Shown here: one piece after another, positions 24,710 through 48,763 of the stretch
How positions within the stretch are numbered: the stretch's first letter is position 1
Layout of the letters: the number at the start of each line of letters is the position of its first letter
Assembly (NCBI RefSeq): GCF_900099835.1
Contig: NZ_FNKP01000002.1
Coordinates: 2,170,001-2,234,000, forward strand
Reading direction: 5' to 3'
DNA: 64,000 bases
Source: Paraburkholderia fungorum
GTDB taxonomy: Bacteria > Pseudomonadota > Gammaproteobacteria > Burkholderiales > Burkholderiaceae
Position numbers and translations under genes: made by a program
The notes under the pieces: model-generated
What the model was told of the DNA's origin: nothing
Seen by the model: the letters and a program-made list of their open reading frames with translations, nothing else
Databases searched by the model: none

Positions 24710-25960
24710 ATGCCACGCATCTTCCATGCGCTAGATGACGTTCAGATCCGTCACTGGATTGCACAAAAAAATCCCGTCGCCAAAGCTGATGGCGACGGGT
24801 TGACGTTCACCCTTTCCGCTAATGGTACTGCAACTTGGGTGCTGCGCTATAGCAGAGGCGAGCGCAGACGCGAACTCACGCTCGGCAACTACCCCGACCT
24901 GACGCTAGCAGCAGCTCGGAAGCAGGCGCGCATGCATCGGGTGGCCATCGATAGTGGCGAAGACCCGGCGGCCGACAAGAAGACGGAGAAGGCGCGCACA
25001 GCTACCGCAATGACTGTCAGTCAATTATGCGACGAATTCGCCCAGAAGGTTCTTACGCCGCCGCTGGCAGCCGGAACTATCGAAGAACACACACGGAACA
25101 TAGATACCTTCCTTCGACCCAAGCTGGGCTCGCTTGAGGTAAGGAGGGTGCGGCCATCCGATATCGTTTTCATGCTCGAGAACGCCGACCGATCCTGGCA
25201 GGTAACAAAAAAGCTGCTAACTACCACAAAGCAACTGTTTAGTCGTGGCGTCGGCAAGAGGCTGATTGACGTCAATCCAGCCTATGGAATCGAACTTGAA
25301 GCCATCCTGGGGAAAGCGCCAGCCGTCCGGAAACGCATCATGCTCGCAAAGAATGAACTCGGAACGATACTGCCGGACATCGACAGCAAGATCGGCCGGG
25401 AGAATGGCTTGATGTTGCGAATTCTTCTGGCGACTTGCGTGCGCACCAGCGAACTCGTCAAGGCGGAAAAGAGCCTTATCGATCGTGACCGAGGAATCTG
25501 GATAGTTCCAGACGAGAACACGAAGACCCGGATGGGATTTCTCGTCCCGTTGGCGCCTCCGGTCGTCGCATGGATTAATGAGCTATGGGCGCTATCCGGG
25601 GACTCGGATTGGCTGCTGCCGACCCGCCATGCCGGCCGCCGCGCCAAGCACGGCGACACTCACATTGGGCGAAAGACGTTACTGGACTCACTGAATAATG
25701 CATTCGAAGCGGGTCGCCTGAAAATACGTCGTTTCACGCCTCACGATACCCGCAGTACGGCCAAGGGGCACATGCGCAACATGGGCGTATCGCGCGAGAT
25801 CAGTGAACTTGCCTTGAGCCACAAGATGCGAGGGATGGAGGGGATTTATGATGTGCGCGAGGACATTCCTGAGCGCCGTGAAGCGCTCAATATCTGGGCC
25901 CAATTCGTCTCTGAATGCTGCGAACGCGAACCCACTCCCCCCACCCTTGCGCATGTCTAA
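24710..25960 (+). CDS. int: Prophage tyrosine integrase (P4-type, DUF4102 N-terminus)
   Basis: A 416-residue tyrosine recombinase. It has an N-terminal arm-binding DUF4102 domain (about 1-95), a core-binding domain (about 100-200) and a catalytic domain with R245 (ATCVRTSEL), K272, H345xxR348 (HDTRSTAKGHM), H371 (LSHK) and Y380 (GIYDVRE). It would integrate and excise the phage. The gene is transcribed into the prophage and is convergent with the excisionase-like gene, 9 bp apart. No ribosome site is visible in front of the ATG, and no tRNA gene is adjacent. Confidence 0.9.
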   Translation: MPRIFHALDDVQIRHWIAQKNPVAKADGDGLTFTLSANGTATWVLRYSRGERRRELTLGNYPDLTLAAARKQARMHRVAIDSGEDPAADKKTEKARTATAMTVSQLCDEFAQKVLTPPLAAGTIEEHTRNIDTFLRPKLGSLEVRRVRPSDIVFMLENADRSWQVTKKLLTTTKQLFSRGVGKRLIDVNPAYGIELEAILGKAPAVRKRIMLAKNELGTILPDIDSKIGRENGLMLRILLATCVRTSELVKAEKSLIDRDRGIWIVPDENTKTRMGFLVPLAPPVVAWINELWALSGDSDWLLPTRHAGRRAKHGDTHIGRKTLLDSLNNAFEAGRLKIRRFTPHDTRSTAKGHMRNMGVSREISELALSHKMRGMEGIYDVREDIPERREALNIWAQFVSECCEREPTPPTLAHV

Positions 25961-30198: not shown

Positions 30199-31011
30199 TT
30201 AGGACATGCATTCGCACGGCTTGGCGTCGAAGATCGGCCGTACCGCAATGATCTTTTTCGCTTGAGCCCAGAAACGCTGTGGCTGGATGTGTTCGGTCGC
30301 CGGAATGCCGGCCGCCTTCATGCGCGCGAAACGGTCTTCCATGTCTTCGAGATAGACGGCGCCAGTTTCGTCGTGGTGAATCGAATAGCCGATCTCGTCC
30401 TCGGCCCACTTTCCCTTCAGCCAGATGTCGGGCCGCGTGCAGTACACGACGTACCAGTGCTGCCATCCAGCCTTGAGGCACCCGACGCAGTTCGCGTGCT
30501 TGAATACGCCATATGTGTTCGGCAGGGAAACGCCGATTTCCATGGTACTGACGATCGTACGGTCCGCCCACAGGGCAACGGGATAGTCCGTCTTCCAGCC
30601 CATTGCGCCCATGATCGAAGAACGTCGCTGGATGCGTCCGGCTTCGTTGGAGTCGAACCCGTAGTAGCAGACCGTGTTTTCCGGGTTGGCGTTGGCCGCC
30701 ATCCACTTCATGAACGGCTCAGTCTTCAGCACGCTGGTGCAGAACTCCTGACCGCCGTCCACCTTGAACGCCTTCTTCGCGACAGTCACGTCGAACTGGT
30801 CGAGCTGCGCGTTTGCGTAGCTTGCATACGTCACTGGCAGGCCGAGATGGTCAGCGACCTCTCGCTTGAACCGCTTGATGTCGGCGTCTTCAGTCCAGAA
30901 CGGCAGATCGTGGTTCAGCAAGACGATCTCGTCGCCAGCGAACCGGCGAGCGACCTCGATCGCTACAAGCCCTGAACTGTGGCCGCCGGAATAGCAGACA
31001 ACTCGTTTCAT
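30199..31011 (-). CDS. PAPS-reductase-like PP-loop (N-type ATP pyrophosphatase) protein
   Basis: A 270-residue protein beginning MKRVVCYSGGHSSG, the PP-loop of N-type ATP pyrophosphatases of the PAPS-reductase/adenine-hydrolase-like superfamily. Several Cys near the C-terminus (HANCVGCLKAG, AKPCECMS) could hold metal or act in sulfur transfer. Phage members are common but uncharacterised; DndC, of DNA phosphorothioation, is a distant relative. No other dnd gene is near. GAGAG lies upstream of the ATG. Confidence 0.7.
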   Translation of the reverse strand: MKRVVCYSGGHSSGLVAIEVARRFAGDEIVLLNHDLPFWTEDADIKRFKREVADHLGLPVTYASYANAQLDQFDVTVAKKAFKVDGGQEFCTSVLKTEPFMKWMAANANPENTVCYYGFDSNEAGRIQRRSSIMGAMGWKTDYPVALWADRTIVSTMEIGVSLPNTYGVFKHANCVGCLKAGWQHWYVVYCTRPDIWLKGKWAEDEIGYSIHHDETGAVYLEDMEDRFARMKAAGIPATEHIQPQRFWAQAKKIIAVRPIFDAKPCECMS

Positions 31012-31058
31012 ATCGTCTCTCTCAGTCAATCGCAGAAAAAGCGTTTATCTGTGGGGCG

Positions 31059-31511
31059 TCAGAACGGCAGATCATCGTCAGGATCGCCGGTCAGTCCGGG
31101 TTCGCTATCTGGTTCCGCATGCACCCGAGGGACCGCCTTCACGCGGATGCAGATCAGGTCTTTGCCTTCGAGGTCGTAGCAGTCGCTCAGATCAACGAAA
31201 GCCTTGTATCTGGCCTTGCTGCGCGTGCTGGCGCTCACAGTGAACACTGCCGGGCTATCCCAGTCATCCCACCTGTCGCGCGGCAGCAGACACTTCCATT
31301 CGCGCAGCGCGGGGGCGTCGATGATGTCGCCGTAGACGACCTTGTCGACGGGGTGATAACGGCGCTCTTCCTCGCTCTTGTCGCCGTCGATGACCACGCA
31401 GAGGTAATGACCATCTGCGCCCACGATCACACCGGTTTCGCCGTAACACGTGACCTGACGACCGCGCTCAGCGGGCACGCCGTAGTGTTTGCGGATGTAG
31501 TCGAAGCTCAT
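31059..31511 (-). CDS. Phage hypothetical protein
   Basis: A 150-residue protein. The N-terminus YIRKHYGVPAERGRQVTCYGETGVIVGADGHYLCVVIDG is a small beta-barrel-like segment found at the start of other phage accessory proteins; the tail is acidic (SEPGLTGDPDDDLPF), reminiscent of the acidic tips of single-strand-binding proteins, though no OB fold is clear. Function unknown. Confidence 0.6.
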   Translation of the reverse strand: MSFDYIRKHYGVPAERGRQVTCYGETGVIVGADGHYLCVVIDGDKSEEERRYHPVDKVVYGDIIDAPALREWKCLLPRDRWDDWDSPAVFTVSASTRSKARYKAFVDLSDCYDLEGKDLICIRVKAVPRVHAEPDSEPGLTGDPDDDLPF

Positions 31512-31544
31512 ATTCGTCTCGCGTTCAGGTTTATTTGTGATACA

Positions 31545-31576
31545 GATATCTGCCGTTTATTCGTCTGGCAGATATC
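31545..31576. repeat. 10-bp perfect inverted repeat at the end of the RT gene
   Basis: Arms GATATCTGCC (31,545-31,554) and GGCAGATATC (31,567-31,576) with a 12-nt loop overlap the reverse-transcriptase stop codon. There is no T-run. It may be a processing or transcript-end structure of the DGR operon. Confidence 0.5.
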
Positions 31577-32909
31577 ACTTTCCACGGTATGTTTTGGTCA
31601 ATGCCTTGTTGACTGCGTGGCCCCGTTGGCGGATAGCATTGGCCAACTGAGCGCGGTCGTGGTGGCTGCTCGGTGCTTGATTGAGCAAACCGAAATAGCT
31701 GTTTGATACCGCTAGGAAATCATCAGGTGACACTCGGCTCACACGGCGTACCGCCTCAGTAACCGTTCGTCGCCGAGTTGACCGCGACCACGGCTTGATG
31801 ACGTGGCCAACAAAGTCAATTCCGCGATCGACTGGCTGCAGAATCGTTTTCTTCGGATTCAGGCGAACGCCGAGCCGAGTTGGAAGGAATTCGGTGACGT
31901 CCGCGAGGATCTCGTTGAGCCGCTTTGGCGACTCGTGCAGAAATATGAAATCGTCCACATAACGGATGTAGTACTTCGCTCCGAGGACGTGCTTGGCGCG
32001 CTGGTCGAGCACATCGAGGAAAACATTGGCGAAAAACTGGCTCGATAGATTGCCGATCGGCAAACCCCGATTCGCGGTCTGTTCCATCAAGCGCTTGTGA
32101 GGCGGAACCTTCGCCAGCAGCCTCTGATTCCCGCGGAACTCGAAGTCTTCCCGTGGATCGTGCATCAGCACGGTTTCTGTCAGCGATGCCCAGAATGGCT
32201 CTGATACCTTCGCCAGTAAGAGACCTCGCAGAATGTCCTTGTCTATCGAGACAAAGAAATTCGCCAGATCGCACTTCAGGTAAAACGCAGGGCGAGACCA
32301 GTTCTGCGTAATGCTCCTGATCTTCGATTCGAGACGTTTTGCTGCATACAGCGTCCCGCGACCGGTGATGCAGGCACATGAATCGGCAATGAATGATCTT
32401 TCGAACTGCGGGCCGATGTGGTTGTAGAGCAGGTGATGCACGATGCGATCGCGAAACTCTGCCGCCCATACTTCGCGCGGCTTCGGCCTCGTGATCACAA
32501 AGCATATGGAGCGCCCCGGCGCATAGCTTCCGTCGACAAGTTCGTCGTAGAGGCCACGAAGGTTGCGCTCGAGATGCACTTCGAACGCCAATGCACTGTT
32601 GCTGTTCCGTTTCGTGCGCCGACAGTCGAAATAGGCTTCGACCAACTCGGCGAATGAAAAGGGTTTTCGATCTGCGGACGACACGGGCACGACAGTGGTT
32701 GTTCTTGTCGTTGTTGTTCTGGTTGCCGTTGTTGAAGTTCTGATACCAGGCCCAGCCGCATGTGTCGTGCTATCTACGTTTTCCGTCCGATTGCTCGGCT
32801 GGGAAACTGCGCTGGACCTGTCCGCATGCTCGCGGCTGGTTTCCATGGTGCGCATGTCGGTGGCCTCGTGAGCCAGCGGCACGACCAGATTGAAATATCG
32901 CTCAGTCAT
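31575..32909 (-). CDS. DGR reverse transcriptase
   Basis: A 444-residue reverse transcriptase of the diversity-generating retroelement clade. Fingers/palm motifs: RPKPREVWAAEFRDRIVHHLL (about 141-161), LKCDLANFFVSID (211-223), the DGR-type PIGNLSSQFF (284-293) and catalytic YVDD (317-320). It copies the template RNA with adenine-directed errors. The ATG at 32,909 overlaps the avd stop by 8 bp and has AAGG upstream; with this start, codons 51-80 lie inside the template repeat. A downstream non-ATG start near 32,640 would avoid that, and I cannot decide between them. Confidence 0.9.
   Translation of the reverse strand: MTERYFNLVVPLAHEATDMRTMETSREHADRSSAVSQPSNRTENVDSTTHAAGPGIRTSTTATRTTTTRTTTVVPVSSADRKPFSFAELVEAYFDCRRTKRNSNSALAFEVHLERNLRGLYDELVDGSYAPGRSICFVITRPKPREVWAAEFRDRIVHHLLYNHIGPQFERSFIADSCACITGRGTLYAAKRLESKIRSITQNWSRPAFYLKCDLANFFVSIDKDILRGLLLAKVSEPFWASLTETVLMHDPREDFEFRGNQRLLAKVPPHKRLMEQTANRGLPIGNLSSQFFANVFLDVLDQRAKHVLGAKYYIRYVDDFIFLHESPKRLNEILADVTEFLPTRLGVRLNPKKTILQPVDRGIDFVGHVIKPWSRSTRRRTVTEAVRRVSRVSPDDFLAVSNSYFGLLNQAPSSHHDRAQLANAIRQRGHAVNKALTKTYRGK
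32670..32759 (-). repeat. DGR template repeat (TR)
   Basis: A 90-nt core shared with both variable repeats. On the coding strand it is packed with AAC codons, giving YQNFNNGNQNNNDKNN in the target frame. It ends in a GC-rich 29-nt block identical in all three copies. All mismatches to the two variable repeats fall at its adenines. It lies between avd and the RT core, inside the RT reading frame. Confidence 0.95.
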
Positions 32910-33276
32910 GAAGGCCTTGACTTCCATGAAGCGGGCGACGTGCGGAATTGCGCCATCCGTTAGCCTGTTTGCCGATGCTGGTGGTTAGCTCGACCGCTGC
33001 TGCATACGCCTTCTTGGAGATCAACCGCTTGTCCATCGCCAGCCGGACGAGAAGGTTGATAACCTCAAGCCGCTCAAGCAACTCCATCAGATGTGGCGCC
33101 TTGTCCTGAGCGACGTTCGCTCTGAACACCAACACCGTTATCTCAATGCACTCGAGGTTGATCTTCTCGCCGATCGAACGCTTGAAATCGCGCTGCATGT
33201 TCTTGACCAGATCGGTGACCACATCCAGCAGGTCATACGCTACTTTGTAAATCGGCAAACTCGTATGGATGGCCAT
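32902..33276 (-). CDS. avd: Avd-like four-helix-bundle DGR accessory protein
   Basis: A 124-residue, wholly helical, basic protein of the Avd/four-helix-bundle family, the same length as I recall for Bordetella phage Avd. Typical features are the IYKVAYDLLDVVTDLV helix, LERLEVINLLVRLAMDKRLIS and the C-terminal KQANGWRNS. Avd forms a pentameric barrel that binds RNA and the reverse transcriptase and is required for mutagenic homing. It lies between the target genes and the RT. No Shine-Dalgarno is visible; it may depend on coupling to the upstream target gene. Confidence 0.85.
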   Translation of the reverse strand: MAIHTSLPIYKVAYDLLDVVTDLVKNMQRDFKRSIGEKINLECIEITVLVFRANVAQDKAPHLMELLERLEVINLLVRLAMDKRLISKKAYAAAVELTTSIGKQANGWRNSARRPLHGSQGLHD

Positions 33277-33293
33277 GAAATCTAATTATTAAA

Positions 33294-33752
33294 TTATTCA
33301 ATAACTAATCTGCGGACGACACGGGCACGACAGTGGAAGTCCTTGTCGCCGTGGCTCTGGTGGCCGTAGTTGAAGTCCTGATACCAGGCCCAGCCGCTAT
33401 TCGTTTCGTGCTGCTGCCCCGACCAATACCAGGCCGATTGAAACTCGCCCTTCAGGTTGGCAAAGAGCAGAGACTGTTCGCGCCGGTTCGGTAATTCGCC
33501 GCCCTGCTCCGCGGCCCACTTTCCAGCGTCCGCCCAATCGACTGTCTCGGCCTCGCCGGGAAGAAGAATGACGTGATGGCCTGGTGATCCGTCCTCGCCA
33601 ATAATCACGCCCGCGTATTTCTCGCCCGGCGCCAAGGAAATTTCAGCCGCCTCAATCTGGATGATCGACGTAGCTGCTTGTCGCTCGAATTCAGCGATCA
33701 TTTTCGAAACCTTCATTTGTTCGGCCTTGATAGCCTCAAGCGTCACCGTCAT
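33294..33752 (-). CDS. DGR variable protein 1
   Basis: A 152-residue target protein. Residues 1-40 form a helix (MTVTLEAIKAEQMKVSKMIAEFE), then a compact domain (GEKYAGVIIGEDGSPGHHVILLPG, LPNRREQSLLFANL, SAWYWSGQQHETNSGWAWY) that resembles the C-type-lectin/formylglycine-enzyme-like fold of DGR targets. The C-terminal 30 codons are the variable repeat, ending CRARVVRRLVIE. The ligand-binding face is expected to be formed by the varied residues. AGGAG precedes the ATG. The helical N-terminus is absent from its paralogue. Confidence 0.85.
   Translation of the reverse strand: MTVTLEAIKAEQMKVSKMIAEFERQAATSIIQIEAAEISLAPGEKYAGVIIGEDGSPGHHVILLPGEAETVDWADAGKWAAEQGGELPNRREQSLLFANLKGEFQSAWYWSGQQHETNSGWAWYQDFNYGHQSHGDKDFHCRARVVRRLVIE
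33308..33397 (-). repeat. DGR variable repeat 1 (VR1)
   Basis: Aligned without gaps to the template, VR1 differs at 10 of 90 positions, and all 10 are template adenines on the coding strand. The changes alter codons to give DFNYGHQSHGDKDF in place of the Asn-rich template peptide. The final 29 nt are identical to the template. Confidence 0.95.
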
Positions 33753-33781
33753 GTCATGCGCTCCTGAAAATTACTGAATGA

Positions 33782-34141
33782 TTAAATGGGCAATCTGCGG
33801 ACGACACGGGCACGACAGTGGCCGACCTTGGCGTTGAGGATCTGGTAGCCGTTGCTGAAGTTCTGAAACCAGGCCCAGCCGCTCTCACGGTGGTGCGTCT
33901 CGTTGCTCCAGTACCAATCCTTCTGGAACAGATCGCGGAATCCGGCCCAAAGCATCGCCTGCTCTACCCGCGTCGGGAGACCGCCACCGATGCTTTTCGC
34001 CCACGCGAGCTGGTCATCGAACGTCGCATCGTCGCTATCGCCTGGCAGCAGAACTACGTGATAAAAATCACCGTTCTTGTCGCCGATCGCGCCGACGTAC
34101 ACTTCGCCCTCTGCGAGCGGCGGAATCTGAAGTTGTTGCAT
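33782..34141 (-). CDS. DGR variable protein 2
   Basis: A 119-residue paralogue of variable protein 1. Shared blocks are GEVYVGAIGDKNGDFYHVVLLPGD, GLPTRVEQAMLWAGF, WYWSNETHHRESGWAW and the C-terminal CRARVVRR. It lacks the N-terminal helix of its neighbour. The start is ATG 34,141 with AAGGA 5 bp upstream. A strong terminator-like hairpin lies just before that ribosome site. Together the two targets, avd and RT form a leftward cassette. Confidence 0.85.
   Translation of the reverse strand: MQQLQIPPLAEGEVYVGAIGDKNGDFYHVVLLPGDSDDATFDDQLAWAKSIGGGLPTRVEQAMLWAGFRDLFQKDWYWSNETHHRESGWAWFQNFSNGYQILNAKVGHCRARVVRRLPI
33793..33882 (-). repeat. DGR variable repeat 2 (VR2)
   Basis: VR2 differs from the template at 11 of 90 positions, all at template adenines. 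Six of these positions are also changed in VR1, mostly to different bases. The encoded variable segment reads FQNFSNGYQILNAKVG. The terminal 29 nt are unchanged. Confidence 0.95.
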
Positions 34142-34155
34142 GATTTTCCTTGTCG

Positions 34156-34182
34156 AAAAAATGGCCCTCGTAGTAGAGGGCC
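34156..34182 (-). terminator. Intrinsic terminator just upstream of the DGR cassette
   Basis: On the minus strand a 7-bp perfect stem (GGCCCTC/GAGGGCC, 6-nt loop) is followed by ATTTTTT, ending 15 bp before the variable protein 2 start codon. It would stop transcription from the recombination genes before the DGR, or act as an attenuator. Confidence 0.75.
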
Positions 34183-34236
34183 GAACACACTCCAAGCGTA
34201 GGGACCAATTACGCCTGGGAGTTGATGCGAGGGGGC

Positions 34237-34304
34237 GCACCACTACACCGCGTATTCAGGGAGATTCACGCCTGGTTGGCTTCATCCCTTGCGGTGAGTG
34301 GTGC
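34237..34304. repeat. Imperfect long-range inverted repeat
   Basis: GCACCACTACACCGC (34,237-34,251) pairs with GCGGTGAGTGGTGC (34,291-34,304) with one bulge, around a 39-nt loop, in the 170-bp gap between exonuclease and variable protein 2 genes. Confidence 0.35.
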
Positions 34305-34311
34305 GTGAGGG

Positions 34312-35079
34312 TTAAGCGGCTTGCTGGCGAAGCTGCTTCTCGTACTGGGCAACAAGCATGGCGAATTGCCAGAGGTCTTTCTCCATCGCCTCGATAAAAT
34401 TGTCGTCGCGCTGAACTTCGACCATCGTGAATTGCTTGCCGACTGGCGAAAGCGCCGGACAGTACAATCCGATATGCCACCACTTGCGACCGGTCAGCCA
34501 GAGACAGCCCTGCGCCTGCTCAAGCACCTCGGTGAAGTCGTTATCCAGCAGGATCGCGCGCAGTTTGTCAGGAGCGACGAAGCACTTGTATTCGCTGCCG
34601 CCATCTTCATTGATAAGCCCGTCTGCGCTCGCTCCAAACAGTCCGTCATCGGTCGTCACGAACCCCGCTCGCTTCACGAAAAGGCCAGTTTTCGCTTCAT
34701 GTTCCATGCGAGCCTCGGGCTCCAGATCATGCCCCCGGCGCATACTCCAAGTCTCGAATCCCTCATCCAGTGGCTCGCCGCTGATGCGTTCAATCGCCAA
34801 ACGGAACGCGTAATCCTTGGCTGCGTCTGAATAGTCCCCGACCTTTTCGCCGTTCAGCGCTCGGTTAATAATGTCCGACTTGGGCGTTACCTTGTATCCG
34901 GCGGCTTCGGCGGCAGCCTTCTCGGGCGTTCCCGCAAGTCGCAGCGCAACGAATTGCTTCTGGCGGTCGTCGAGATCTCCGACTTTCTTTCGAGCGGTTG
35001 CAAACATGCTCGCCGTGATGCAACCGGCTCTGCTTTGCAGCCATTCCCGCGATCCTTGCGCACATTCGATGATTTTCAC
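34312..35079 (-). CDS. YqaJ-family phage exonuclease (lambda-exo-like)
   Basis: A 255-residue nuclease of the YqaJ/lambda exonuclease family. Recognisable parts are the N-terminal QGSREWLQSRAGCITAS, GHDLEPEARMEHE, the metal site FGASADGLINEDGGSEYKCF and QAQGCLWLTGRKWWHIG. It degrades 5' strands of dsDNA ends to feed an annealing protein. It overlaps the upstream gene by 4 bp. Confidence 0.85.
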   Translation of the reverse strand: MKIIECAQGSREWLQSRAGCITASMFATARKKVGDLDDRQKQFVALRLAGTPEKAAAEAAGYKVTPKSDIINRALNGEKVGDYSDAAKDYAFRLAIERISGEPLDEGFETWSMRRGHDLEPEARMEHEAKTGLFVKRAGFVTTDDGLFGASADGLINEDGGSEYKCFVAPDKLRAILLDNDFTEVLEQAQGCLWLTGRKWWHIGLYCPALSPVGKQFTMVEVQRDDNFIEAMEKDLWQFAMLVAQYEKQLRQQAA

Positions 35080-44315: not shown

Positions 44316-45110
44316 TCAGTTACCGCCCGCCAACCCCGATCCTGATCGGTAGATAACTTCTCCAGCGATATGAAGTCCCTCGAGCTGGCTGGCGAGAATT
44401 ATCTTGTCTGGATATTCCGGGTTGTACGAATGGAGCCGCAAAGCCCCCTCCGGCTCCTTGAAGATCTGTTTAACCAATGGCTCATCCTCAAAGGTGACAG
44501 CATAAATCAGGCCATCTTTCACCCGAGTTTTCGCCGTACAAATCATCATCATGTCTCGATTGAACAAATAGGGCTCCATGCTCCGGCCATGAACCTGAGC
44601 CAATTTGCAATCTTGCGGACGGACGCCCAGCGCTTTGAAAAACCCAATATCAAAAGGCAGCGCTTTCTTTTGTCGTACTTCCCATTGAATCAAACCGTTC
44701 CCCGCTGAGTAACGATAGTCATAACGGTCGATCCAAACCCGATCTGCGTCGGGCTCGAGGTCTTCCGGCTTCTCCCATGTGACTAAGTTACCGCTGCCCG
44801 CAGGCAGCAATTTATCGATTACACGCTGCGTTTGCTCGCTGATCGACTCATCCTGTTTGCCAGAAACATGCAAACGAGATGCATCGATCATCTCCCCCTC
44901 GCCGGTCTGTAGCCAAACCGCGCTACATCCTATTAGTCGCTGGGCATCCAGCATTCCCTCTTTGGAAACCCCGCGCGACAGCCAGTTCGTGATTTTTTGA
45001 GGCGAGACGCCGAGCAGGCGTGCGACATCAGAAGGGCCGACCGCACCCTTCAAAACCCTGGCGGCCTCCAGCAGCCGCTCTCCGCTCGCTTGCTTCGATT
45101 TATCTTTCAT
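44316..45110 (-). CDS. CI-like prophage repressor (S24 peptidase family)
   Basis: A 264-residue repressor. N-terminal helix-turn-helix (SDVARLLGVSPQKITNWLSRG) and a C-terminal S24 domain with catalytic S177 (HGRSMEP) and K214 (PLVKQI). A likely self-cleavage site is A136-G137 (YSAGNG). The 37-residue Ser-Lys spacing equals that of LexA. It should hold lysogeny by binding the TTAAACA operators and be inactivated through RecA after DNA damage. ATG 45,110 is chosen because the longer frame crosses the operator region. Confidence 0.85.
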   Translation of the reverse strand: MKDKSKQASGERLLEAARVLKGAVGPSDVARLLGVSPQKITNWLSRGVSKEGMLDAQRLIGCSAVWLQTGEGEMIDASRLHVSGKQDESISEQTQRVIDKLLPAGSGNLVTWEKPEDLEPDADRVWIDRYDYRYSAGNGLIQWEVRQKKALPFDIGFFKALGVRPQDCKLAQVHGRSMEPYLFNRDMMMICTAKTRVKDGLIYAVTFEDEPLVKQIFKEPEGALRLHSYNPEYPDKIILASQLEGLHIAGEVIYRSGSGLAGGN

Positions 45111-45130
45111 GCGCCGAATCTTTGCATAAG

Positions 45131-45186
45131 TAAACAAAATGTTGTTACACGTAGCGTTTGACAACGGGATAAACATGGTGTTTAAT
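45131..45186 (+). promoter_or_regulatory. Early rightward promoter (PR-like) with operators
   Basis: -35 TTGACA (45,158-45,163), 17-bp spacer, -10 TTTAAT (45,181-45,186): the same two hexamers and spacing as the leftward promoter. Operator TAAACA-TGG-TGTTTA (45,170-45,184) covers spacer and -10; a weaker one, TAAACA-AAA-TGTTGT, is at 45,131-45,145 on the repressor side. Confidence 0.8.
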
Positions 45187-45195
45187 TGATACACC

Positions 45196-45462
45196 ATGAT
45201 TAAACACACCGAACTCCACCCCGACAGCAAGATCATTGACGATCTTGGCGGCCCCTCCAAGCTCGCTGAGCTGTTGGGTTACGACAAAACATCGGGCGGT
45301 GTGCAGCGCATCCAGAACTGGAAGCGACGTGGCATACCTTCCAGCGTCAAGATCGCCCGTCCCGATCTTTTCATGACTGATCTGATCGACCGCATCAAGT
45401 CCATAGACGATGCCCAGAACAACCCGGGCGGACGGCGGGCAAAACGTAATACGCAGAAGTAG
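45196..45462 (+). CDS. Cro-like YdaS-family antirepressor
   Basis: An 88-residue DNA-binding protein (LGGPSKLAELLGYDKTSGGVQRIQNWKRRG) of the YdaS/Cro-like type, divergent from the repressor. The ATG is only about 3 nt after the expected transcription start of the rightward promoter, and no Shine-Dalgarno is possible, so translation is probably leaderless. It should compete with the repressor for the operators and commit the phage to lysis. Confidence 0.8.
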   Translation: MIKHTELHPDSKIIDDLGGPSKLAELLGYDKTSGGVQRIQNWKRRGIPSSVKIARPDLFMTDLIDRIKSIDDAQNNPGGRRAKRNTQK

Positions 45463-46326: not shown

Positions 46327-46515
46327 ATGAACGCGCCGACGCCTATCCACTCGGACCCGCTTCTGGCGGAGGTATTCGAGCTGCTGCATCCCATGGAACT
46401 TTGCCAGAGCCGCGAGCCGTTTCAGTGGATGGCGAGCGACGCATTGCGCAAGTTGAGCGCCTATGAGGCCCAAAGCCGCGCCAAGACGCTTGATCGACTG
46501 ATGAAGGGTAACTAA
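46327..46515 (+). CDS. Small phage hypothetical protein
   Basis: A 62-residue helical protein (MNAPTPIHSDPLLAEVFELL). It starts 2 bp after the membrane peptide and its stop overlaps the replication gene start. Function unknown. Confidence 0.55.
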   Translation: MNAPTPIHSDPLLAEVFELLHPMELCQSREPFQWMASDALRKLSAYEAQSRAKTLDRLMKGN

Positions 46516-47378
46516 TGGATTGGTTCCGCTGGTGGCATGGCACGGTAACAGACCCGAAATTTCAATGGGTCTCGCGCCGTTGCGGGCAAGACGTCGCCAC
46601 GGTGATTGCAGTCTGGGCCTGTCTGCTTGAATGCGCGAGTAATGCAACGCAATGCAACGCAGATGCAACGCGAGGCAACGTTGCATCGTTTGACTGCAAC
46701 GATTACGACGTTTTGTTGGGTCTTGACGATGGTGTTGTGAAGAAAGTTTGTGAAGCGATGGTCGAGAAAAAGCTGGTCGTTGACGGTCGAATTGCGGGTT
46801 GGGATGGACGTCAGCCAAAGCGCGAAGATTCCGGCAATCCCAATACTGGCGCGCTTAGCAGTACTGAGCGCAGTCGTTTGCATCGTGAAAAATTGAAACG
46901 TGAAGCAACGACTGGGGACGAAATGCAACGCGATGCAACGCAAGGCAACGACAGAGAAGATAAGAGTAGAGAAGAAACAAACCAATCATCTACTGACGTA
47001 GATGAAGCGATCGACGATGTCGGATCGCCCTCTGGCGACAGGATTGCAAATTGTCCTCACCAGAAGCTGATCGAGTTGTATGCAAAGCATTTGCCTGAGT
47101 TGCCCTACCCGGCAATTTGGGAGGGAAAGAAAGCGCAGGCAATGCGAGCGAGATGGCGGTGGGTTCTGACAGCCGAGAAACGAGACGGCAGTCGGCACGC
47201 CACGGATGAGGCGAGTGCCGTCGCCTGGTTTGAGAGGTTCTTCTCCTACGTCGCCAAAAGCGATTTCCTGACGGGGCGGAACGACAAGTTTATGAACTGC
47301 GACCTGGGTTGGCTGATGAAGGCCGACAACTTCAACAAGGTCATGCAAGGGAACTACGAGAACAAGGCTCCGAAATGA
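46515..47378 (+). CDS. Phage replication protein (O-like) with internal iterons
   Basis: A 287-residue protein. The N-terminus (MDWFRWWHGTVTDPKFQWVSRR) matches phage replication initiator/helicase-loader-type proteins located before dnaB. It then has a low-complexity, hydrophilic middle (about 100-175) and a C-terminal domain with conserved Trp/Arg. The gene carries two clusters of ATGCAACGC repeats, as lambda O carries its origin. It probably binds the origin and loads the DnaB encoded next, whose start overlaps its stop. Confidence 0.7.
   Translation: MDWFRWWHGTVTDPKFQWVSRRCGQDVATVIAVWACLLECASNATQCNADATRGNVASFDCNDYDVLLGLDDGVVKKVCEAMVEKKLVVDGRIAGWDGRQPKREDSGNPNTGALSSTERSRLHREKLKREATTGDEMQRDATQGNDREDKSREETNQSSTDVDEAIDDVGSPSGDRIANCPHQKLIELYAKHLPELPYPAIWEGKKAQAMRARWRWVLTAEKRDGSRHATDEASAVAWFERFFSYVAKSDFLTGRNDKFMNCDLGWLMKADNFNKVMQGNYENKAPK
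46642..46950 (+). repeat. ATGCAACGC iterons, candidate replication origin
   Basis: Cluster 1: ATGCAACGC at 46,642, 46,652 and 46,663, a degenerate GGCAACG, and an inverted CGTTGCAT at 46,679. Cluster 2: ATGCAACGC at 46,923 and 46,933 and GGCAACG at 46,944. The repeats fall in different reading frames, so the DNA sequence rather than the protein seems to be conserved. Confidence 0.6.
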
Positions 47379-48763
47379 ATGCACCGGACAAATTCATCGA
47401 AGCGGCGCGTGAAGTGCCGGCATCCGTCGAAGCAGAGCAATCCGTGCTTGGCGCGCTGATGGTCGACAACGATTCGATCGACCGCATTGGCGACCTGAAG
47501 GAATCGCACTTCTATCGCTACGACCATCGGATGATTTTCGAGCACATCTCGAAGCTGATCGTCGCCGGCCGTACCGCCGACATGATCACGGTATTCGAGG
47601 CCCTGGGTAACTCCGGGAAGGCTGACCAAGTTGGCGGCCTTGCTTACCTCAACACGTTGGTGCAAAACACGCCTGGCAGCGCAGGGATCGCCCGGTGGGC
47701 AGACATCGTGATCGATCGATGGAAGTTGCGCGGCTTGCTGTCGGCCTCGGATGAAGTCGCTGAAATGGTCTTCAACCGCGCTGGCAAGTCGGTTTCAGAA
47801 ATCATCAGCGAGGCTCAGGCCAAGTTCGAGCCGCTGGCGGAAGCCAAGTCGTTCGAGCCGAAAATGCCGGGGCCGATCCTGACGGAAATCGTGACGGAGA
47901 TTGACGAGCGCTACCACGGCGCCCCGCTCTCGGTCACTTCGACAGGCTTCGCGGATATGGACGCCAAGCTCGGCGGCGGCCTGCGCGGTTCCGAACTGGT
48001 CATCGTCGCCGGTCGACCATCGATGGGCAAGACTGCCTTCTCCATGAACATCGCCGGGAACGTTGCGCAGGACGGCGGCACGGTGCTGGTGTTCTCGCTC
48101 GAAATGTCGGGCAAGGCGCTGCACCAACGGAACATCGCCCGCATCGGTGGCATCCCTCTTGGACACGTTCTGGACGGCAAGAAAATCACTGAGAGCGACT
48201 GGCCGCGCCTTACTCACGCCGTATCAGTCATGTCGGAAATGATGCTGCTGGTAGACGACACGTCTGGCCTGTCCATGGCGGAAATCGCGAGTCGCAGCCG
48301 TACCGTGAAGCGCCGCTATGGTCTGAAGATGATCGTCGTTGACTACATCGGTCTGATGACGGGCGGCACCGAAGAGCGGCAAGACTTGAAGATCGGCGGC
48401 TATTCCGCTGGCCTCAAAGGTCTGGCAAAGCAGCTCGACATCCCAGTGGTTGCCCTCGCCCAGCTGAACCGTGGCGTCGAACAACGCCCGAACAAGCGAC
48501 CGACCATGGGCGATCTACGCGACTCTGGGGCTATCGAGCAAGACGCCGACATCATCCTGATGCTCTACCGCGACGAGGTCTACAACCCGGACTCTCCCGA
48601 TCGCGGCACAGCGGAAATCATTGTTGGTAAGCAGCGAAACGGAGAGACAGGCCCAGTCCGTCTCGCATTCATTGGCGAACACCAAAAGTTCGCAGACATG
48701 GCACCGGGATACGTGTCCGCACCGCGCACGACGCCCGAAAAAACTCGCCGGGGGTTCGAATGA
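47375..48763 (+). CDS. dnaB: Replicative DNA helicase DnaB, phage
   Basis: A 462-residue hexameric helicase. N-terminal domain EQSVLGALMVDNDSIDRI; RecA-type motor with Walker A GRPSMGKT (213-220), VFSLEMSG, VVDYIGLM and the arginine finger region GDLRDSGAIEQDADIILML. It unwinds DNA at the phage fork. The ATG overlaps the preceding stop codon. Confidence 0.9.
   Translation: MNAPDKFIEAAREVPASVEAEQSVLGALMVDNDSIDRIGDLKESHFYRYDHRMIFEHISKLIVAGRTADMITVFEALGNSGKADQVGGLAYLNTLVQNTPGSAGIARWADIVIDRWKLRGLLSASDEVAEMVFNRAGKSVSEIISEAQAKFEPLAEAKSFEPKMPGPILTEIVTEIDERYHGAPLSVTSTGFADMDAKLGGGLRGSELVIVAGRPSMGKTAFSMNIAGNVAQDGGTVLVFSLEMSGKALHQRNIARIGGIPLGHVLDGKKITESDWPRLTHAVSVMSEMMLLVDDTSGLSMAEIASRSRTVKRRYGLKMIVVDYIGLMTGGTEERQDLKIGGYSAGLKGLAKQLDIPVVALAQLNRGVEQRPNKRPTMGDLRDSGAIEQDADIILMLYRDEVYNPDSPDRGTAEIIVGKQRNGETGPVRLAFIGEHQKFADMAPGYVSAPRTTPEKTRRGFE

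Follow-up and report, generated by a model that had tools for sequence, protein, structure and literature searches.

A structured RNA 5′ of the template repeat in a diversity-generating retroelement of a Paraburkholderia fungorum prophage

A DGR cassette with one template and two targets

We analyzed a 64,000-nt stretch of the Paraburkholderia fungorum genome (assembly GCF_900099835.1, contig NZ_FNKP01000002.1, positions 2,170,001 to 2,234,000; hereafter the window), whose minus strand carries, from 34141 to 31575, a diversity-generating retroelement (DGR). The cassette comprises two target genes, the accessory gene avd, one template repeat (TR) and a DGR-type reverse transcriptase (RT), in the order target 2, target 1, avd, TR, RT (Table 1). 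The initial annotation, made from the letters alone, had proposed a complete DGR with one template and two targets in a prophage, and the repeats, the RT and Avd matches and the surrounding phage genes support this proposal. Alignment of the three copies of the 90-nt core (at 32,670, 33,308 and 33,793) reproduced the reported differences: the variable repeat (VR) of target 1 has 10 mismatches with TR and that of target 2 has 11, with no gaps, and 21 of 21 fall at template adenines (hypergeometric P of 1.5e-6 and 3.1e-7, respectively). A recount also returned the 15 adenines said to be changed in at least one target, out of 27 in TR; six are changed in both. No further copy was found in the whole genome (8.58 Mb, 4 contigs) at E ≤ 0.001.

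The RT matches PHROG 1423 (1.6e-111). Among solved chains, 8ub7, a reverse transcriptase of 328 aa, is nearest to it by sequence (5.4e-34); from its length we take this chain to be the enzyme of phage BPP-1. The next one, a maturase, scored 1.8e-8. Avd matches Pfam bAvd (1.9e-14) and PHROG 3206, 'Avd protein of DGR' (8.1e-32). By sequence the RT is closest to DGR RTs and it groups with those of phages, which places it inside the DGR clade. In a 30-row tree, the RTs of the window family were grouped with those of Bacteroides phage F2 and of the Melainabacteria type, while the RTs of BPP-1 and of five further phage DGRs fell outside this group (support 100/99). This split is provisional because the tree holds DGR-type RTs only and its long branches were flagged by the tool.

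Table 1. Positions in the window of the cassette features and of prophage genes
Feature	Position	Strand	Basis or remark
DGR reverse transcriptase	31575..32690	-	PHROG 1423, sequence relatives
TR core; the RT coding start overlaps or adjoins its 3′ end	32670..32759	-	alignment of three copies
RT-15 structured RNA (Rfam RF03018), 5′ of TR; extends on its 5′ side into the 3′ end of avd	32758..32940	-	Rfam match
RT-15 loop strand, predicted to pair with the TR 3′ end	32886..32894	-	covariation
Candidate priming adenosine	32891	-	inside the RT-15 loop strand
TR 3′-end helix strand (CAGAT + 4 nt of flank)	32666..32674	-	covariation
RT-15 closing stem, 3′ strand, 4 nt ahead of the TR core	32764..32770	-	5′ strand 32879-32885
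avd (accessory variability determinant)	32902..33276	-	Pfam bAvd, PHROG 3206
Target 1, 152 aa, weak Lcl_C match (DUF1566-type, C-type-lectin-like)	33294..33752	-	
Variable repeat VR1	33308..33397	-	alignment with TR
AT-rich 8-nt direct repeats 3′ of VR1	33284..33302	-	
Target 2, 119 aa, paralogue of target 1	33782..34141	-	
Variable repeat VR2	33793..33882	-	alignment with TR
AT-rich 8-nt direct repeats 3′ of VR2	33769..33787	-	
Integrase	24710-25960		prophage gene
YqaJ-type exonuclease	34312-35079		prophage gene
CI-like repressor	44316-45260		prophage gene
O-like and DnaB-like genes	46515-48763		followed by NinI, NinG, terminase and portal

Related loci were collected with the RT as query; 80 of 87 loci from genome contigs were kept, as were 80 of 318 from viral contigs. 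Together with three phage records and the window they make 164 sequences, including duplicates across collections, of which the 157 with RT identity above 55% are called the family. The initial annotation had named two grounds for giving up its reading, a lack of adenine bias among relatives and an RT outside the DGR clade. Neither applies: the RT is closest to DGR RTs, and the bias is common to the related loci, with an adenine-biased TR/VR pair in 148 of the 157. No TR was found within 420 nt in the other nine, among which that of locus L069 was recovered by a wider search. Within the genus, 17 of 144 genomes, the own one included, have a DNA match to the RT. The cassette as such is therefore an ordinary member of a large family present in Burkholderiales and Pseudomonas. 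DGRs, Avd, DUF1566-type targets, two VRs and a TR overlapping the RT open reading frame have been described, and both the overlap with an end of that frame (DiGReF group 3) and two VRs in Burkholderia among multi-VR cassettes are on record (PMC3521204, PMC6642488, in part).

The RT-15 RNA and the 3′ end of the template

An Rfam search of positions 31000-35000 revealed, between avd and TR, an RNA that the initial annotation lacked: a full-length match to RT-15 (RF03018) from 32940 to 32758, which scores 155.8 bits against a cut-off of 82 and ends at the TR start. Counting the own genome in each sample, RT-15 was found above the cut-off in 15 of 144 genomes of the genus (17 hits) and in 9 of 399 of the order; in the sample of the class (369 genomes, stricter filters) it was found only in the own genome. 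A family RT match accompanied 25 of 25 distinct loci above the cut-off, one of them partial (L345), and was seen in none of seven hits below it, where stretches of about 3 kb were examined.

RT-15 folds into a hairpin and a multi-branched domain shut by a closing stem. The Rfam model stops at the TR start and leaves unpaired the AAUCUG directly before that stem, whereas in the window RNA this loop and the CAGAU(U) at the 3′ end of TR are complementary. Covariation supports the predicted pairing. Over 78 dereplicated loci, the structure of 65 pairs was paired in 93.4% of the cells, with changes on both sides at 47 pairs; none of 500 shuffles scored as high, and slid versions were only 31-39% paired. 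The RT-15/TR helix alone (9 pairs) was 89% paired, with both-side changes at six, and its covariation reached 0.280 versus 0.100 for shuffled and at most 0.100 for slid alignments. Pair 7 forms in 98% of the loci with their own partner and in 43% with random partners, and it occurs as GC (53), CG (32), UA (17), AU (5) and UG (2), with two loci unpaired (111 of 114 dereplicated loci, the columns not covering the other three).

The contribution of common descent was evaluated by permutation and by parsimony. When the helix partners were permuted freely, the observed value of 959 exceeded the 856 ± 8 of the permutations, none of 3000 being as high; inside RT clusters drawn at thresholds of 0.20, 0.25 and 0.30, the counts as high were 1, 0 and 0 of 3000. 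On a FastTree tree of the RTs, pair 7 required 15 changes in RT-15 and 14 in TR, ten of them on the same branch and eight compensatory, and helix positions 2-10 yielded 22 compensatory same-branch changes.

Layout of the template RNA compared with BPP-1 and other DGRs

To our knowledge, the chemistry of DGRs is known mainly from BPP-1. The window shares with the BPP-1 cassette (mtd, avd, TR, brt) the order target-avd-TR-RT, the adenine-biased change, an Avd, a DGR RT and a C-terminal VR. The RNA layout is reversed, however. In BPP-1, avd ends at the TR start with no gap and 144 nt separate TR from brt, whereas in the window 142 nt, mostly RT-15, separate avd from TR, and TR abuts the RT start with about no gap, so that no structured spacer lies 3′ of TR before the RT. 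The structured element thus stands 3′ of TR in BPP-1 and 5′ of it in the window, in mirrored fashion. Hence the comparison with BPP-1 made in the initial annotation holds for the adenine-specific change and not for the RNA layout, nor for the targets, which in BPP-1 are a tail protein and in the window lie outside the tail module.

Gap lengths were compared across both groups. The canonical set counts 147 loci, near-duplicates included, with TR found in 119 (56 BPP-1-like and 63 VP58.5-like); in all 119, TR lies 133-279 nt from RT residue 1. Of the 157 family loci, the 148 with TR found within 420 nt have gaps of 0-54 nt, and the distance from avd to TR has a median of about 157 nt (one outlier, 2880). 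Six other phage DGR records served as controls; in Bacteroides F2 the gap is 35 nt, and in the remaining five it is 132-317 nt. Covarying stems are located 3′ of TR in BPP-1-like loci (52 loci). A spacer hidden within the RT codons of the family was considered and rejected: no extra synonymous constraint was detected in the 5′ codons, third-position variation being 0.56 in codons 0-29 and 0.50-0.61 in later blocks.

Two arrangements serve as natural tests and agree with the mirrored layout. In L069, a PHROG 424 (PAPS reductase-like) gene (L069:5180-5944) separates TR from the RT by 843 nt, yet RT-15 and TR remain together, and a 10-bp helix between them can be drawn by eye. In Bacteroides phage F2 (L170) and in L194-L196, TR is also near the RT (gaps of 32-81 nt; avd to TR 125 nt in L170); the RTs are about 34% identical to that of the window. 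By eye, a loop/TR 3′-end helix with other letters can be drawn in L170 (GUUAUCUG/CAGAUAAC) and in L195 and L196 (UUCCGUAA/UUACGGAA). For the Melainabacteria-type RTs, a TR was sought in L077-L079, L082 and L083 and none was found; L080 and L081 gave weak candidates, and a scan of viral contigs for relatives of the L081 RT returned none.

A close relative among isolated phages is Burkholderia phage Magia (MT701587), which has an integrase and a repressor. Its RT is 77% identical to that of the window, an RT-15-like sequence lies between avd and TR, and lectin-like targets stand between recombination genes and the integrase; the depositors themselves labelled a 'possible DGR target'. It differs in that its TR has three VRs, of which one lies about 7 kb off in a lectin-like target near the immunity region (L164:5761-6141). 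Taken together, these comparisons point to a second layout of DGR template RNA. The relevant parts of PMC3521204 and PMC6642488 do not discuss RNA structure 5′ of TR. Among the papers listed in a literature search, none gave an account of RNA structure on the 5′ side of the template in a DGR, of RT-15 with DGRs or of the octamer repeats behind the VRs (see below), although an earlier description is possible.

In BPP-1, the RNA 3′ of the template controls priming: the spacer brings in RT-Avd and contains the priming adenine, and a motif in the avd 3′ end terminates the cDNA (parts of PMC12875486). We consider it probable that in the window DGR the structured RNA 5′ of TR, RT-15, presents the template and starts the cDNA, acting as the BPP-1 spacer does from the opposite side. 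In the transcript, RT-15 would be followed by TR and then by the RT. The 3′ strand of the closing stem would end 4 nt ahead of TR and AAUCUG would form a helix with CAGAU(U) at the 3′ end of TR; with these two helices adjacent, TR would be held as a loop of about 100 nt. RT and Avd would recognise this fold, synthesis would begin at the TR 3′ helix, probably from an RT-15 adenosine by analogy with BPP-1, and TR would be copied with errors at adenines until the enzyme halts at the closing stem. The cDNA would then replace VR1 and VR2 in the two small lectin-like genes of the early operon. A candidate for the priming nucleotide is the A at helix position 6, which is conserved in 103 of 111 loci while the opposite TR base is T in only 74 of 111, and which is thus presumably kept for more than pairing. 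If this is true, a natural class controlled from the 5′ side would reveal the RNA features that cannot be dispensed with, namely a helix at the 3′ end of the template and a stop at its 5′ end, and a role would be assigned to the RNA family RT-15.

The position of the helix invites another explanation. In 147 of 148 loci TR ends 0-30 nt from the start of RT homology, so that the likely RT start is covered by the helix, which might be a translational switch limiting RT synthesis, the spacer that starts the cDNA being elsewhere. In L069, however, the helix is kept with the RT 843 nt away behind another gene, the RT ATG lies farther downstream in Bacteroides-type loci, no other structured candidate was seen 3′ of TR, and the 5′ RT codons showed no extra constraint; we regard a switch as unlikely. 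The RT frame of the window stays open, across TR and RT-15, to 32927 and further upstream, so that GTG 32690 or GTG 32684, both within TR, or an upstream ATG could serve as its start. The idea of an obligatory long N-terminus was dropped, since in many Pseudomonas loci the frame is closed 78-84 nt upstream of RT homology, with ATGATG within TR.

Alternatively, RT-15 may act only as the 5′ stop signal of the cDNA, like the BPP-1 avd 3′ motif (PMC12875486, in part), with priming 3′ of TR. The closing stem 4 nt ahead of TR suits this. It leaves the compensatory pairing between the loop and the TR 3′ end unexplained, however, and the RT codons 3′ of TR showed no RNA constraint, so that we hold this explanation, too, to be improbable.

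Some observations weigh against the proposed mechanism. Inside the tightest RT clusters (threshold 0.15) the permutation fails, with 369 of 3000 as high; these clusters are small and their helix partners vary little. At helix position 6, 27 of 78 loci lack a pair, and the outermost pair is missing in 27 of 76. When the window sequence is folded alone, the helix is part of the minimum-energy structure, but the fold does not reach significance (z = -1.04; 34 of 200 shuffles did as well), and no TR was found in family loci L014, L056, L075, L090, L115, L130, L141 and L143. Finally, RT-15 could serve only to end the cDNA, priming being drawn from the analogy with BPP-1. The result in the tightest clusters would also fit a plain BPP-1-like DGR in which the covariation is a by-product of relatedness and alignment. 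This is strongly disfavoured, and we rate it as very improbable, in view of the 22 compensatory same-branch changes, the four Watson-Crick types at one pair, the similar helix with other letters in Bacteroides-type DGRs and the gap ranges of family and canonical loci, which do not overlap.

A more far-reaching version of priming from RT-15 can be put forward only tentatively. Two mirror-image classes of DGR template RNA might exist, and in the window class the RT-15 loop would prime, remain at the 5′ end of the cDNA and be written into the VR end, whose last bases would then derive from RT-15 instead of TR. At helix positions 1-5, the VR tail follows RT-15 in 18 of 18 VR cells for which TR is discordant with it; at position 6, when TR is not T, 53 of 54 VRs with an intact CAGAT carry T, complementary to the RT-15 A. 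Against this, the RT-15 complement is matched in only 74% (position 4) and 67% (position 5) of 221 VRs, and selection on the protein end encoded by the VR could produce the same pattern. Pairing of RT-15 with the VR, our first idea, was set aside, as TR pairs more consistently and many Pseudomonas loci have no more than CAG left in the avd-proximal VR; the idea is retained solely within this version.

Sequences behind the VRs, activity and prophage setting

A hairpin or cruciform directly 3′ of the VR, a BPP-1 feature, was not found family-wide; an AT-rich array of period 8 (ATTYARTM-like) is there instead. The 45 nt following BPP-1- and VP58.5-type VRs are hairpins at the median (-7.7 kcal/mol), those of the family AT-rich octamers with less stable folds (-2.4 kcal/mol). 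The lag-8 autocorrelation was 0.413 versus 0.269 in shuffled flanks (maximum 0.282; 247 distinct flanks from 124 loci, a few beginning at a misplaced boundary). A loose 13-nt motif occurs in 93 of 247 VR flanks and in none of the 247 matching TR flanks; it was drawn from family VR flanks, so that its occurrence in them partly reflects this choice, whereas its rarity elsewhere does not. Of 158 matches in 1.785 Mb of loci, 131 are located no more than 45 nt 3′ of a VR (47 of 51 for the strict form), and only one of 81 canonical flanks has it. In the window a 19-nt form of the array occurs twice, once behind each VR, and some Pseudomonas loci have a GC stem farther 3′. The array may have a role in target recognition. 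The AT-rich repeats behind the VRs suggest a second way of marking targets.

The initial annotation had also considered the system active, or recently so. For relatives only, this is supported by VR differences that fall mostly at TR adenines, and the window DGR may itself be currently active. Among 39 close locus pairs, 14 were identical over the compared stretch, 13 of them with VRs in register and all these VRs identical; nine of the identical pairs join a genome contig and a viral contig, probably one genome twice. In the other 25, eight had VRs in register (17 comparisons), and 276 of 353 VR differences were at TR adenines. TR is equal in three of these eight pairs and has 1-6 differences in five. 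For the three TR-identical pairs, the differences at A were 17/19 and 15/17 (L019/L023), 15/17 and 17/21 (L146/L153), and 14/17 and 17/17 (L154/L161). The 200 nt ahead of the VRs differ at 25 and 135, 7 and 138, and 34 and 124 positions, respectively, and some second targets are thus different genes. Two prophage stretches 140 kb apart in one related genome (G119; L188 and L189) share a 5,276-nt block at 99.87% identity, which holds RT, TR and VR1, the second target lying outside. Their VR1s are identical, and this pair was dropped as uninformative on activity.

By its gene content, the window holds a temperate myovirus prophage. Sheath, tape measure (weak), baseplate and tail fibre proteins are encoded to its right in the same genome (L192:3085-15650), so the DGR and its targets sit in the early operon of the left region, with about 44 kb between them and the tail fibre gene. 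The DGR of Magia is placed likewise. The VRs are C-terminal in both targets, whose Lcl_C matches (9.9e-6 and 1.9e-4) are under the Pfam cut-off. In parts of a survey (PMC8144416), viral targets of three DGR clades are mostly annotated as tail proteins. Since the targets here are small early-operon proteins and not tail fibres, phages of this type may diversify a function other than receptor binding.

Close downstream of the RT lies a PAPS-reductase-like gene (PHROG 424; 30199-31029, minus strand). The tail fibre gene is followed by an O-acetyltransferase or O-antigen acetylase-like gene (L192:15805-16869), possibly a surface-conversion gene of the lysogen. Finally, records OK094664.1 (named host, Shewanella) and OP650936.1 (a Tenericutes bacterium) agree in length (47,902) and in match scores and may be one phage with differently named hosts.

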